DNA of 64,000 nucleotides from Rhodothermales bacterium (GTDB taxonomy: Bacteria; Bacteroidota; Rhodothermia; Rhodothermales; VXPQ01): contig OX638293.1 in assembly GCA_951812335.1 (NCBI GenBank), positions 700,501 to 764,500 of the forward strand, in the 5' to 3' direction. Positions 3,120 to 62,429 of the stretch are shown here, piece after piece. A program made the translations under genes and the position numbers. Numbering within the stretch: the stretch's first letter is position 1; each line of letters starts with the position of its first letter. Below the pieces are notes generated by a model. The model saw only the letters and a list, made by a program, of their open reading frames with translations, was not told the origin of the DNA and did no database searches.

Positions 3120-4397
3120 TCAGTTCTCGATCATCCACGTATCGCCCGCATTCAGCAGGTTGCTGAGGTCTCCCTTGCCGCGCTTGGCGGTGATTCCCTC
3201 GATTTGCTTCTCCAGGAGTTCCTCGTAGGCGGGCCGATCTTCCCGGAAGAACACCCCGAACGGGCGGGGCAGGTCTTCCTGCCACGACATCCGCGACACG
3301 ATGTTCGCCAGTTCGATGCTGCCTTCGTTGTATAAAAGGCAGTCGTCCACGGACCATTTCCCTGTGGACAGATCGATCGATTCGAGTTCGAATCCGTTGA
3401 GGCGCAGGCCGCGCTGCCCGTTGTCGTATACGAGCGGCTTGCCGTGTTCCAGAAAGATCGTGCTGTGCGCCTTCGTGCTCCTTTCCGTGAATTCGAAGAA
3501 GGCCCCGTCGTTGAAGATGTTGCAGTTCTGGTAGATTTCGAGGAACGCAGCGCCCCCGTGGCTGTGCGCCCGGCGCATCATCGCCTGCATATGCTTCGGA
3601 TCGCGGTCCATCGTGCGGGCGACGAACGTCGCGTCTGCGCCGAGCGCAAGCGGCACGGGATAGAATGGATGGTCGACGGACCCGTACGGCGTACTCTTCG
3701 TGACCTTGCCCTGCTCAGAGGTGGGGCTGTATTGCCCCTTCGTCAGGCCGTATATCTGGTTATTGAACAGCAGGAGCTGCACGTTTATGTTGCGGCGCAG
3801 CAGGTGGATCAGATGATTTCCCCCTATGGAGAGGGCGTCGCCGTCTCCCGTGACGATCCAAACATCCAGGTCCGGGCGGCTTGCCTTGAGTCCCGTGGCG
3901 ATGGCCGGGGCGCGTCCGTGGATGGAATGCAGCCCGTACGTGTTCATGTAGTACGGAAAGCGGCTCGAACAGCCGATCCCGCTGACGAAGACCGTCTTTT
4001 CCTTCGGCACGCCCAGTTCGGGCATGAGCCGCTGCATGGTGGCAAGGATCGCGTAATCTCCGCATCCCGGGCACCAGCGCACATCCTGATCGGTTGCGAA
4101 ATCCTTTCTGGTCAGCGTGGCGGGCGCTCCGTCGCCCCCTGCGCCTGCGGGGAGTGTCGGTTTCTTTCCTGCCAGCGGGCCGGTGGGCCTGCGACCGAGA
4201 GCGTCCGCGGGTTTCTTTCCGCCGGAAGGCATGACCGGCTTCTTTCCTCCCGTAGCAAGCGACGGTTTTTTGCCCGCTGCGGGGAGTGTGGGTTTCTTGC
4301 CCTTGGGGGGCATGACCGGTTTCTTTCCTGACGCAGGGATCGTCGGCTTTTTCCCGGCAAGCGGAACGTGATCGGATTTTCCGTTGGCGTTGTTCAT
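3120..4397 (-). CDS. korB: 2-oxoacid:ferredoxin oxidoreductase, beta subunit, with basic 9-residue repeat N-terminus
   Basis: Thiamine-diphosphate-binding beta subunit of a 2-oxoacid (probably 2-oxoglutarate):ferredoxin oxidoreductase, which makes acyl-CoA, CO2 and reduced ferredoxin. From about residue 100 the protein is standard: WCPGCGDYAIL, then the ThDP/Mg motif GDGDALSIGGNH and NNQIYGLTKGQ. Unusual is the N-terminus: residues 15-85 are eight imperfect copies of a GKKPxxPxx nonapeptide (one copy RRP), a Lys/Pro-rich, presumably disordered tail that the family lacks. There is no hydrophobic signal. It lies 49 bases after korA and is surely co-transcribed. Typical beta subunits are about 280-340 residues; this one is 425. 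Confidence 0.92.
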   Translation of the reverse strand: MNNANGKSDHVPLAGKKPTIPASGKKPVMPPKGKKPTLPAAGKKPSLATGGKKPVMPSGGKKPADALGRRPTGPLAGKKPTLPAGAGGDGAPATLTRKDFATDQDVRWCPGCGDYAILATMQRLMPELGVPKEKTVFVSGIGCSSRFPYYMNTYGLHSIHGRAPAIATGLKASRPDLDVWIVTGDGDALSIGGNHLIHLLRRNINVQLLLFNNQIYGLTKGQYSPTSEQGKVTKSTPYGSVDHPFYPVPLALGADATFVARTMDRDPKHMQAMMRRAHSHGGAAFLEIYQNCNIFNDGAFFEFTERSTKAHSTIFLEHGKPLVYDNGQRGLRLNGFELESIDLSTGKWSVDDCLLYNEGSIELANIVSRMSWQEDLPRPFGVFFREDRPAYEELLEKQIEGITAKRGKGDLSNLLNAGDTWMIEN

Positions 4398-7335: not shown

Positions 7336-7430
7336 GCGCGCCCGGTCAGTTTTTCCCGCTGATTTCAACGATGCAATTATCGCACGAACGCGAAGTGCTG
7401 ATCGAAGCGGTTTTGATCAGAGTGTCCTCA
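7336..7430 (+). repeat. MITE-like element, copy A (right-hand part only)
   Basis: Right end of the dispersed repeat family described at 62171-62429. It matches from the internal GATTTCAACGATGCAA segment through CGAAGTGCTGATCGAAG to the right inverted end TTGATCAGAGTGTCCT. The left part is missing or too diverged to recognise. It lies about 270 bases upstream of thyA. Confidence 0.75.
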
Positions 7431-13740: not shown

Positions 13741-13858
13741 ACGGATCATTGCGTCCCCTTTCCCTCTACCCCTTCTTCAATGGATCAGTGCGCCTCGTCT
13801 CCCTCTTTCTCCTCCTTCAACGGATCAGTGCGCACCGTTTCTTTTCCCCCTTCCTTCA
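13741..13858. repeat. Three tandem copies of a 39-40 bp unit at the 3' end of a membrane-protein gene
   Basis: Units 13741-13779, 13780-13819 and 13820-13858 each start with A(C/T)GGATCAKTGCG and end with TTCTTCA or CCTTCA. The middle unit is 40 bp, so the frame shifts there; on the minus strand the gene reads through the third unit and stops at TGA inside the second. Confidence 0.75.
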
Positions 13859-36112: not shown

Positions 36113-36275
36113 ATTACACGGCCAGCGTACCCCTCGCAGCCTCCCGAAGGGCGCGTCGCGCCCGCACTGCCCGGAATCCACAGTGTTTCCGCTAATTCCG
36201 ACGATGCAATTACGGTATCCCTATACGCACGAACGTGAAGCGCCGGTCGAAGCGGTTTTGATCAGAGTATCCTTA
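36113..36275 (+). repeat. MITE-like element, copy B (left end missing)
   Basis: Aligns to the dispersed family from the ACGGCCAGCGTACCCCTCGCAGCCTCCCG block through GATGCAATTA and CGTGAAGCGCCGGTC to the right end TTGATCAGAGTATCCTT. The left end and first stem arm are absent. It lies just after ftsX; the rest of 36079-36395 has no gene. Confidence 0.85.
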
Positions 36276-36395
36276 AGACTTGTTGATATTATCTATACGG
36301 TTTCGTAGATTACTTACGGCATGCTGTTTCCACCCAATACGGTGCCCTATCTGTCTCGTTTTCATTCCCCGTTCACTGGCGGTATATGACAGGAT

Positions 36396-37778: not shown

Positions 37779-37968
37779 AGGATACTCTGATTGAGTCCGC
37801 GAAGTTCAGAGGCTTGCGAGGGGTGCGCTGGCAAGGAATGACGAAGCAATGTGGCAGGCCCCACATAATGAGAAATGACGCAGCTAGCGTGCCCCTCGCA
37901 GCCTCCCGAAGGGCGCTTCACGTGCAAACGTGAAGTGCTGAGCGAAGCGGTTTTAGTCAGAGTATCCT
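37779..37968 (+). repeat. MITE-like element, copy C (internally shortened, both ends present)
   Basis: Inverted ends AGGATACTCTGATT and AGTCAGAGTATCCT bracket 190 bp. The first internal stem arm TTGCGAGGGGTGCGCTGGC pairs with GCTAGCGTGCCCCTCGCAG; the TGTGG/CCACA hairpin lies between. GCGCTTCACGT pairs with ACGTGAAGTGC across only four bases, so about 70 bp present in the long copies are deleted. Its right end contains the stop codon of pcm. Confidence 0.9.
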
Positions 37969-40408: not shown

Positions 40409-42025
40409 ATGTTTACCTGGTCCGGCGCAATCGGTGCCGATGTACACCATTCTCCAAATGCCGCTGCAAAACCGGCGGTTCGGCTTCCCTCACGAACGCT
40501 CGCGAAAGTGGAAGGGTTTTTAAAGGACCCGGTGCATGTGCAGCATACCCTGTTGCGAAGCCTCTTGCAGCAGGCCGCCGGTACGGAGTGGGGCCGCCGG
40601 TACGGGTTCGGGGAGATCGCCCGCACCCGGGATGTGGTTGCAGCGTATCGGGCCCGCGTTCCGCTCCACACCTACGGCGACTTCGAGGAGGATATACGTC
40701 GTATCCGGGGCGGAGCGCAAGATGTTATATGGCCTGGCGCGTTCCGGCACTTCGCGGTATCGAGCGGGACGACATCCACCGGCAAGATCATCCCGGTGAG
40801 TCCGGAAATGCTTGCCGCGAATCGCCGCTTCACGCTTTCTGTCGGGATGACGTATTTGGCCCGGACGGGCAATGTCGGGTACCTGCTGGGCAAGCATGTT
40901 GCGCTTCCCGGTCGCATTGAAGAGGATCCGGCTTATCCCGGCATGAAGATTGGAGAGGTGAGTGGGCTTCAGGCGGCACATGTGCCTTTTTTGTACCGGC
41001 ATATTCTTCAGGCTGTCCCCAACGAATTAGCCTTTCTGCCGAATTGGGAAGAAAAGTTGCGTGCGGTCGCCCGACGGACCGTAGGCATGGACGTGCGGTG
41101 TCTGATTATGGTCCCATCATGGTCTATGGTTTTTTTCGACGAACTCATCCGGCAGCATCGGGAGCGGTTCGGTTCCGACGCCAAAACGGTCGCCGACGTA
41201 TGGCCCCGGTTGCGGGTATTCATTGCGGGGGGCGTAGCGCTGAGTTCCTATCGGGAATTGCTCCGGGAAAAGATCGCCTTGCCGAAACTACAGTTTTTGG
41301 AGGTGTATGGCGCCTCGGAAGGATTTTTTTCCTTTCAGGACGACGCGAACGATCCGGCCATGCTCCTGCACCTCGACAACGGCGTGTTTTTCGAATTTGT
41401 CCGGATGGACGAGATCGATAATCCGAATGCGCGTCGATATACGGTCGGCGAGGTGGAAACCGATGTGCGGTACGGACTTTTCGTTTCCACATGCAGCGGA
41501 CTCTGGGGTTACCCTGTCGGGGATATCGTGCGTTTTACGGATACCTCTCCGCATAAAATCTTTGTGGCGGGGCGTACGAACGAGATGATAGACAAGTACG
41601 GAGAGGCCGTTTTCAGCGAGGAAGCCCGCCATGCGTTGCGCGTTGCCTGCGAGCGTACGGGTGCGCAGGTGCGTGATTTTCATGTTGCTCCGAATCCCCC
41701 GGCAACGGACCGCTCCCCGTCCCACCAGTGGCTGGTGGAATTCGAACGGGCGCCGGACAGCATGGATCGTTTTTCGAACGAAATAGACGATTACCTCAAC
41801 GAGTTTAACCGGCATTACCGGATTCGCCGCGAGGCACGGGCGTTCGAGCGGCCCGAGGTATTGGCGCTGCCTCCCGGTACGTTTCATGCGTGGCTCCGGG
41901 AAACGCGGAAGCAGGTGAGCGGTCAAACCAAAGTGCCGCGCATGTGCGAGCATCGCGAGATCGCCGACGCCGTGATCGCTTTGCTCAAGGACACTCCGAT
42001 TAAGTCCGCAAAGCTCAGAGGCTGA
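40409..42025 (+). CDS. GH3-family acyl-acid-amido synthetase-like protein
   Basis: 538-residue adenylate-forming enzyme homologous to plant GH3 (auxin/jasmonate amido synthetases). Conserved features include RVPLHTYGDFEEDIRRI, the ATP loop AVSSGTTSTGKIIPVS, the LEVYGASEGFFSFQ motif and FTDTSPHKIFVAGRTNEMIDKYGEAV. From MFTWSGAIG the N-terminus is family-like; an apparent extension to 39353 lies within folP/cdaA antisense and is not real. Bacterial GH3 proteins are common in Bacteroidota but their substrates are not established. The last residues (DTPIKSAKLRG) and stop are encoded by repeat copy D. Confidence 0.88.
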   Translation: MFTWSGAIGADVHHSPNAAAKPAVRLPSRTLAKVEGFLKDPVHVQHTLLRSLLQQAAGTEWGRRYGFGEIARTRDVVAAYRARVPLHTYGDFEEDIRRIRGGAQDVIWPGAFRHFAVSSGTTSTGKIIPVSPEMLAANRRFTLSVGMTYLARTGNVGYLLGKHVALPGRIEEDPAYPGMKIGEVSGLQAAHVPFLYRHILQAVPNELAFLPNWEEKLRAVARRTVGMDVRCLIMVPSWSMVFFDELIRQHRERFGSDAKTVADVWPRLRVFIAGGVALSSYRELLREKIALPKLQFLEVYGASEGFFSFQDDANDPAMLLHLDNGVFFEFVRMDEIDNPNARRYTVGEVETDVRYGLFVSTCSGLWGYPVGDIVRFTDTSPHKIFVAGRTNEMIDKYGEAVFSEEARHALRVACERTGAQVRDFHVAPNPPATDRSPSHQWLVEFERAPDSMDRFSNEIDDYLNEFNRHYRIRREARAFERPEVLALPPGTFHAWLRETRKQVSGQTKVPRMCEHREIADAVIALLKDTPIKSAKLRG

Positions 42026-42239
42026 AAGGAGTGCGCTGGCAAGGAATGACGAAGCAGTGTGGCAGGCCCCACACAATGAGGAATGACACGGCCAGCGTGC
42101 TCCTCTCTGCCTCCCGAAGGGCGCTTCACGCCGCATTGCCCCGCATCCACAGCGTTGATGATTTCAACAATGGAATCGTGACATCCTTTACGCACGAAAG
42201 TGAAGTGCTGAGCGAAGTGGATTTGATCAGAGTGTCCTT
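41987..42239 (+). repeat. MITE-like element, copy D (full length)
   Basis: 253 bp with inverted ends AAGGACACTCCGATTAA and TTGATCAGAGTGTCCTT; note GACACTC/GAGTGTC at both ends where other copies have GATACTC/GAGTATC. First stem GGAGTGCGCTGGC/GCCAGCGTGCTCC shows a change matched on both arms. It overlaps the last 13 codons of the GH3 gene and supplies their stop. The remaining sequence to 42510 has no gene; a small ATGCG-TCTTT-CGCAT hairpin is near 42312. Confidence 0.92.
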
Positions 42240-43868: not shown

Positions 43869-43898
43869 CAAGGAATCGGGAAATAACGAATAATGCAC

Positions 43899-43957
43899 AG
43901 GATACGCTGATTAAGTCCGCAAAGCGCCGGTCGAAGCGGTTTTGATCAGCGTATCCT
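43899..43957 (+). repeat. MITE-like element, copy E (minimal, 59 bp)
   Basis: Only the two ends are left: AGGATACGCTGATTAAGTCC and GGTTTTGATCAGCGTATCCT, joined through CGCAAAGCGCCGGTCGAAGC. The G in ACGCTG is mirrored by C in CAGCGT at the other end, unlike all other copies. Located about 100 bases upstream of purL. Confidence 0.9.
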
Positions 43958-49505: not shown

Positions 49506-49579
49506 CGGGCGTAGTATGCACTATCGAAGTGCGTGGCGGATACGGTGCGCAGAATGACCGGGAAAAACGTAGCGCGGGC

Positions 49580-49625
49580 GCCCCTCTCAGCCTCTGAACT
49601 TCGCGGACTTAATCAGAGTATCCTA
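49580..49625 (-). repeat. MITE-like element, copy F (left end only, reversed)
   Basis: On the minus strand it reads AGGATACTCTGATTAA followed by the GTCCGCGAAGTTCAG and AGGCTGAGAGGGGCG blocks, the left 45 bp of the family. The rest is missing. It lies between the divergent proline dehydrogenase and pdxH genes. Confidence 0.85.
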
Positions 49626-53735: not shown

Positions 53736-53814
53736 CTGCCACACTGCTTCGTCATTCCTTGCCAGCGCACCCCTCTCAGCCTCTGAGCTTTGAGGACGTA
53801 ATCAGAGTATCCTA
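53736..53814 (-). repeat. MITE-like element, copy H (left part, reversed)
   Basis: On the minus strand: AGGATACTCTGATTACGTCC, then GCTCAGAGGCTGAGAGGGG, GCGCTGGCAAGGAATGACG and AGCAGTGTGGCAGG, i.e. the left 79 bp of the family. The right part is missing. It lies between katG and a DinB remnant, and a GATTTAG/CTAAATC inverted pair (53714-53720, 53812-53818) frames it. Confidence 0.85.
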
Positions 53815-62170: not shown

Positions 62171-62429
62171 AAGGATACTCTGATTAAATCCGCAAAGTTC
62201 AGAGGCTGAAAGGGGTGCGCTGGCAAGGAATGACGAAGCAATGTGGCAGGCCCCACATAATGAGGAATGACACAGCCAGCGTGCCCCTCTCTGCCTCCCG
62301 AAGGGCGCTTCACGCCCGCCGACGCCCGGAATCTGCGGTGTTTTCCACTAATTTCAATGATGCAAATACAATATCTTTTACGCACGAGCGTGAAGCGCTG
62401 GTCAAAGTGGATTTGATCAGAGTATCCTT
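62171..62429 (+). repeat. MITE-like structured element, copy G (full length, reference copy)
   Basis: 259 bp. Ends AAGGATACTCTGATTAA (62171-62187) and TTGATCAGAGTATCCTT (62413-62429) form an inverted repeat with one mismatch. Inside are GGGGTGCGCTGGC (about 62212) pairing with GCCAGCGTGCCCC (about 62275), a TGTGG/CCACA hairpin between them, and GCGCTTCACGC pairing with GCGTGAAGCGC near the right end. No open frame of a transposase. Its right end overlaps the stop codon of the large protein to its right, and its left end abuts the cupin start. Confidence 0.93.

Follow-up and report, generated by a model that had tools for sequence, protein, structure and literature searches.

Matched ends in an IS5-derived MITE family of a Rhodothermales genus, and the probable origin of one matched copy by template switching at a hairpin

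A 59-bp palindromic copy in the genome of a Rhodothermales bacterium, with the same base change at both of its ends, belongs to a new and abundant IS5-derived MITE family of one Rhodothermales genus. We suggest, from comparison of sequences and with a probability of roughly 0.6, that its left end was overwritten in place from its right end by template switching at the hairpin. The two ends of one copy match in excess across the family, the same insertion in a congener has one changed end, sub-families with matched ends are mobile, and copies at shared sites occur in opposite orientations. From these observations we infer the direction of change at the 59-bp copy and the replication mechanism behind it.

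Results

An abundant family in one genus

The window, a stretch of 64,000 nucleotides (G000:C1:700501-764500), is part of a 2.69-Mb single-contig genome (G000), in which the 13-mer AGGATACTCTGAT with at most two mismatches occurs at 524 sites, against 10 for a reversed control. A longer end pattern was found in 6 of the 40 genomes searched, its own genome included, and all six are of one genus. Among the 78 matches listed in named genomes, 77 are in Rhodothermales MAGs and one is in a contig filed as Latescibacterota (JAGWBX010000099.1; a single exact end pattern at L072 2449-2470), which reflects either horizontal spread or a mis-binned contig.

The genome was sampled as 40 evenly spaced stretches of 20 kb plus the window (864 kb, about 30% of the genome), and this sample holds 60 end pairs and 167 ends with at most two mismatches, 113 of the latter in pairs. 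The commonest full length is 254-258 bp; a complete element measures about 256 bp and takes up a hairpin fold with several stems. Its inverted end core of 12 bp, GGATACTCTGAT, adjoins two unlike inner ends, giving one A-end, AGGATACTCTGATTAAGTCCGCAA, and one B-end, AGGATACTCTGATCAAAACCGCTT or ...CAAGTCCACTT. Among the shorter forms are those of 24, 39, 59, 65 and 84-93 bp, the 59-bp form being found at five sites in all sequence examined, three of them in G000. Identity between copies of the samples is about 83% (40 random pairs), a difference of about 17%. The following copies lie in the window:

7393-7428, + strand: copy A, solo B-type right end with C at position 5
36113-36278, + strand: copy B, partial, B-end at right
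37779-37968, + strand: copy C, 190 bp, A-end left in G000, flanks TGTA and TACA inverted
41988-42238, + strand: copy D, 251 bp, both ends with C at position 5
43895-43898, no strand: left flank of copy E, ...gcac before AGG in G000, ...gcaat in G004
43899-43957, + strand: copy E, the 59-bp minimal copy, A-end left, B-end right, G at position 8 of both ends
43900-43956: element proper of copy E, GGATAC...GTATCC, with 43899 and 43957 in the target-duplication zone
49578-49625, + strand: copy F, solo A-type end, inverted
53767-53814, + strand: copy G, solo A-type end, inverted
62172-62428, + strand: copy H, full-length, 257 bp, target duplication TTAA

At two sites of the congener G004 (L184 8408 and L192 5967) the element is a collapsed palindrome of 24 bp, the G000 copies there being 93 and 134 bp, and the element can, to judge from such forms, shrink to two fused arms. 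A reading of the 39-bp copies as extended palindromes was rejected, as the pair L105/L169 (G000/G004) looks like a deletion between CTCTGA repeats. Elsewhere in the genus, a G8 end of G001 is accompanied by 15-bp units (AGGATACGCCGATTA) in a short array (L207 505-595), with five end-like sites at 15-bp spacing plus one more. A search of the window against Rfam at gathering thresholds returned tRNA only, and the short imperfect repeats at 13771-13841 and 4145-4347 of the window are unrelated to the MITE.

Relation to IS5

The end core GGATACTCTGAT is common to the MITE and to IS5-type relics (NF033581, PF01609, PF05598) in G004. Three PF01609 transposase relics there each end at the end core GGATACTCTGATCAATCCGG, and an internally deleted relic (L242) has an end on both sides, GGATACTCTGATTTAATCC and GGATACTCTGATCAATCCGG. 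The transposase scores 73.6 bits against PF01609; for the two readable relic pieces the best model is NF033581 (IS5_4), with 129.9 bits for a 137-aa fragment, under the model's cut-off of 140 bits. In G000 itself there is one 87-bp stretch similar to the transposase, and the single PF01609 match has no such ends nearby. A search with one fragment and one family found no active transposase of the matching IS in G000, and inspection by eye of eight long, ORF-bearing end-to-end pairs, two of which share a site, found no transposase-like sequence that would mark an autonomous element.

A 4-bp target duplication is given for IS5 in PMC11677980, and the 4-bp duplication of the MITE fits it. The family thus resembles IS5-family MITEs in its end core, its 4-bp target duplication and its empty sites in relatives; it differs in that the IS is known here only as broken relics, and in that the inner ends of the MITE are unlike those of the IS, so that the 12-bp core is the one feature that points to descent of the MITE from the IS. 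As to mobility, 13 of 21 located rows were scored empty in the other genome, including two nested composites and also L109 14900, of which G004 actually has a truncated copy.

Ends of one copy match more often than chance

The original prediction held that both ends of the 59-bp copy carry the same private base change, and the shared change is there: AGGATACGCTGAT starts at 43899 and ATCAGCGTATCCT ends at 43957, which places G at position 8 (G8) in both ends of the copy (full sequence, AGGATACGCTGATTAAGTCCGCAAAGCGCCGGTCGAAGCGGTTTTGATCAGCGTATCCT). The change is not private, as the exact G8 pattern occurs at 10 ends of nine G000 sites, among which 43899-43957 is the only one with both ends. Exact C at position 5 (C5), the change said to mark copy D, occurs similarly at 11 ends of 10 G000 sites with only D matched at both ends; these exact counts exclude ends with a second mismatch. 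Copy D does have C5 at both ends, but its left end has an extra, unmatched C at position 10, and its change too is found elsewhere, with the same matched ends in a second G004 copy (L286). That the two ends of an element change together is therefore no general rule, since 8 of the 9 exact G8 sites and 9 of the 10 exact C5 sites in G000 are unmatched, some being solo ends without a partner.

An excess of matching is nonetheless real. When ends were compared within copies and in shuffled pairs, the comparison that the original prediction had proposed, G000 gave 14 shared variant cells against 1.82 expected (p at most 1e-4; 53 copies, 53 of the 60 pairs being used and 7 with a three-mismatch end dropped) and G004 gave 7 against 1.95 (p 0.001; 31 pairs), in shuffles that ignore the relatedness of copies. 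With position 1 left out, the two genomes together gave 14 against 2.35, and with position 1 and the copies beginning GGATGC left out, 6 against 1.41 (p 0.001; 76 pairs). By length, matching is strong at 240-300 bp, mostly in GGATGC copies, reaches p 0.04 at 30-60 bp and is not significant at 60-130 and 130-240 bp; short copies show no concentration. The greater part of the matching is thus one sub-family, GGATGC, and three contributors can be told apart: a palindromic target duplication, the GGATGC sub-family and a remaining residue.

Could the 59-bp copy simply have mutated twice, independently, and been picked out after the fact? With 0.10 matched G8 pairs expected by chance, and with many variants that could have drawn notice, one such pair would not be extremely unlikely. 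For matched G8 or C5 pairs, two variants likewise chosen after the fact, the expectation from the 524 ends is 0.21, and the probability of at least two is about 0.02. Set against the family-wide excess of matching in two genomes, we consider coincidence highly improbable.

Target duplication and mirror flanks

In 76 copies, a diagonal scan for direct repeats gives the target duplication (TSD) a length of 4 bp and the consensus TTAA, which rules out a 2-bp TA duplication, our first reading. Because this duplication includes 'position 1', the element proper starts at GGATAC, and the matched first bases (C/C, T/T, G/G) cannot be counted as changes of the element. Over 159 copies, palindromic TSDs number 20 against 10.31 expected, direct-only TSDs 18 against 2.18, and inverted-only TSDs show a weak excess (6 against 2.62, p 0.044), with 1 against 1.13 expected in the 71 copies outside the G000 and G004 samples. 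In the same 159 copies there are 5 inverted runs of at least 7 bp against 0.41 expected; two of these runs come from a single site. The flanks of L109 14899 mirror each other over 11 bp, in a repeat that apparently takes in the last bases of the reading frame upstream, and those of L120 19254 over 8 bp; at both sites the TSD is inverted and not direct. Mirror flanks around a palindromic TSD, as at L123 5137, could stem from an insertion preference for palindromes.

Matched-end sub-families

The suggestion that sub-families with matched ends have been mobilised is borne out by the GGATGC copies, by copy D and by a set of G8/G8 copies that G001 and G002 contain. The GGATGC end, GGATGCTCTGAT, occurs at 43 ends in G000, which form 10 pairs with lengths of 243-257 bp and two further pairs 516 bp long, and at 31 ends in G004, which form 5 pairs; these pairs were assembled by hand from coordinates. 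The 516-bp pairs are composites in which one MITE is nested in another with GGATGC outer ends, and they are 98.9% identical over 526 bp at two sites, a non-autonomous element that took its passenger along when it moved:

L258 430-946 (G000:C1:563530-564045): 516-bp composite
L259 486-1002 (G000:C1:1303986-1304501): 516-bp composite

Seven GGATGC pairs were sampled; the corresponding G004 site was found for five of them, and all five are empty. GGATGC is a young mobile sub-family whose ends are alike. Copy D belongs to a two-site sub-family, showing 0/251 differences from its G004 ortholog and 97.6% identity to L286. Full-length G8/G8 copies form three pairs in G001 and two in G002, one G002 copy being at the same site as a G001 copy, and G003 has a 104-bp G8/G8 copy elsewhere than at the site of the 59-bp copy.

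The 59-bp copy and its counterpart in G004

Copy E sits between a putative VOC-type gene (- strand) and a putative purL (+ strand), both named from a reading of their ORFs. Its predicted RNA hairpin has -32.7 kcal/mol on the + strand (z -7.1, with no shuffle equally good) and -26.9 on the other. The site is without the element in G001, G002 and G003. G004 has the same insertion as a copy of about 125 bp, in identical orientation, with T8 at the left end and G8 at the right. From flank base 0 to position 13, the arms in G000 match without a break, whereas those in G004 mismatch exactly at bases 0 and 8; these are the bases at which the two genomes differ, and both match in G000. Flank base 43898 C is thus complementary to 43958 G in G000, and this complementarity is absent in G004.

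The nearest interior relatives of the G004 form are T8/T8 in 13 of 13 cases (the best 13 listed, the G004 form itself excluded), and positions 19-22 read CCGC in E and CCAC in the G8/G8 set of G001 and G002. As G004 has the one-end state, as these interiors are T8/T8 and as the inner bases differ in this way, T8/G8 would be the older state and the left G8 a base copied in place. Further supporting copying in place, G000 has no second exact G8/G8 pair from which E could have come by transposition. A third arm difference between G000 and G004, at position 21, looks like a change in G004. Within the inner B arm, 5 of 16 bases are different in the two species, more than the background of about 9%, and given this excess part of E may derive from another source. 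Comparison with outgroups leaves the polarity of the left flank base ambiguous, because the target duplication is scrambled.

The clean evidence for copying in place is thus one site, at which polarity is likely but not certain. G004 could be the changed one, with an ancestral G8/G8 state and a reverted left end, and E would then come from an older mobile sub-family that was already G8/G8. The full-length G8/G8 copies of G001 and G002 speak for such a history, as do the GGATGC and C5 copies, which show that matched sub-families arise and move. Against it stand CCAC in that set where E has CCGC, the T8/T8 state of the nearest interiors among those listed, and the lack of a second exact G8/G8 pair in G000, and we regard it as possible but distinctly less probable than overwriting of the left end from the right. 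End-to-end copying, as the original prediction had offered, is accordingly the best reading for the 59-bp copy, mainly through this one shared insertion.

Other insertion sites shared between species

At the site of copy C, G004 holds a 257-bp copy whose orientation is opposite to that in G000 at both ends, and at L120 19254 the orientations are again opposite, the G004 copy being truncated. The stretch between the arms is thus inverted at two sites, and other causes, such as recombination between repeats or separate insertion, may account for this. L090 7523 has an A-end in one genome and a B-end in the other at one outer flank, both copies being truncated. Among typed shared ends, 26 agree and 3 are flipped, with 13 untypable in G004. 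Eight of 18 shared G000/G004 rows have unchanged arm cores, and three of the 18 (L094 6622, L095 8869 and L120 17659) were judged to be chance or without a real G004 end pair.

At L124 7307, a 39-bp copy in G000 has A/A at position 6 and a 257-bp copy in G004 has G/G; these may be separate insertions. At L100 7102, G000 has T8/G8, and in G004 an outer T8 end adjoins an 88-bp G8/G8 inner copy, one end of which has C10; in our reading two neighbouring ends have fused in the G000 form, the matched state being lost or separate there.

Rearranged shared copies diverge like their flanks: at six alignable sites 73/584 bases differ (12.5%) against 9.4% in flanks, ten sites having been tried, three of them without an alignment and one with a flank not found. 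The full-length shared copies are different:

Window 41988-42238 and 62172-62428: full-length copies shared by G000 and G004
L093 1860, L097 12412, L112 9583 and L123 5137: full-length copies shared by G000 and G004
L198/L270: full-length copy shared by G001 and G002

All seven have diverged by 0-2%, the flanks of these same copies by about 6-10%. The six G000/G004 copies differ at 13/1529 bases against 276/3564 in 300-bp flanks, and the G001/G002 copy at 3/254 against 22/378. Left out of these counts as chance or half-chance pairs were L097 9209, L109 3295 and L079 342; with the first two kept, intact G000/G004 rows give 47/2038 against 390/4760 in flanks. A shorter intact shared copy, L112 14233, departs from this pattern (4/159 against 8/591). 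Next to the element, at 1-4 bp, flank divergence is 1/56, and it has reached 6% by 5-10 bp. Arms were not seen to be more conserved than flanks over 54 'shared' ends (7.5% at arm positions 2-13, 6-7% in flanks), a set that includes chance end-like words. We offer as a tentative and rather doubtful extension that full-length copies are functional hairpins maintained one by one or are copied afresh into their existing sites from one species to another, and that new sub-families with matched ends are founded by end-to-end copying and spread afterwards.

A maintained structure and possible selection on it

Thirty-five aligned full-length copies (of 51 found) share a multi-stem structure in which 98.1% of cells are paired. 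Ten pairs show double changes, in four of seven helices and in inner as well as terminal stems, and 0 of 500 shuffles, which ignore relatedness, are as high. The structure is maintained, and the original prediction had listed hairpin selection as one cause of matched ends: if an RNA or DNA structure is to stay paired, a base changed in one arm would put the other arm under selection to follow. The covariation, which extends beyond the ends, is in keeping with this, as is the better folding of the A-to-B strand in 30 of 35 copies and the lean of single-end arm variants to G-U over A-C (36 to 19 cells).

The wobble signal is reduced, however, when it is taken apart. Counted by arm position, single-end variants are 6 to 4. 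G-U exceeds A-C by 21 to 7 pairs on the structure of the A-to-B strand but by 10 to 6 on pairs common to the structures of both strands, and the structure of the other strand leans the opposite way (13 to 14 pairs, 34 to 73 cells). The A-to-B strand was not found to be co-oriented with genes, 15 of 39 copies between co-directional genes being so placed by a simple ORF-based gene call, and the unmatched state of most G8 and C5 sites also argues against selection for equal ends. As the source of the matched ends, selection on the hairpin therefore seems to us improbable. Of the other two mechanisms first put forward, mobilisation of sub-families acts and end-to-end copying probably does, in different copies.

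Discussion

Matched ends would, as we see it, come from three sources. The target duplication is often palindromic and would supply matching bases at the border of the element; sub-families whose ends already match would be multiplied by transposition; and in a resident copy, replication would at times switch template at the hairpin, so that one arm is overwritten from the other, as in quasipalindrome correction. For the 59-bp copy, the right end would have gained G8 while the lineages of G000 and G004 were still one. Conversion of the left end to G8, which took in the neighbouring flank base as well, would have followed in the G000 lineage. The flipped elements and mirror-image flanks at other sites fit template switching.

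Comparable events are described in experimental systems. In E. coli, quasipalindrome template switching perfects an imperfect inverted repeat by arm-to-arm copying (PMC7202029). The likeness is that one arm is copied into the other and the repeat becomes more perfect; the differences from the system in that paper are that the event here is inferred from species comparison and not measured, and that the arms of a full-length MITE are more than 200 bp apart. Template switching between inverted repeats is given two signatures, homogenisation of the arms and inversion of the spacer (PMC8604942; also PMC8794818 and PMC7202029). Both arm matching and inversion between arms are seen here, as in the homogenisation of inverted-repeat arms in yeast, although the spacers listed there are 2-5 bp (PMC8604942), whereas the inversions here span about 190-257 bp. 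Among the literature matches listed, none dealt with this MITE family, and none described end-to-end copying for a MITE of bacteria.

Correia, ERIC, RUP and REP-type palindromic repeats of bacteria are high-copy, hairpin-forming, small and mobile, as is the MITE described here; compared by description, they differ from it in their ends and target duplication, which is TA for the Correia type. RUP and REP are among the palindromic repeats named in PMC10969869.

How a mobile element regains equal ends after one of them has mutated is rarely visible. In this genus the one-end state, the matched copy and spreading sub-families with matched ends can be seen side by side, and template switching thereby becomes testable as a founding step of transposon sub-families. 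Covarying ends of palindromic repeats do not, on their own, prove selection on an RNA.
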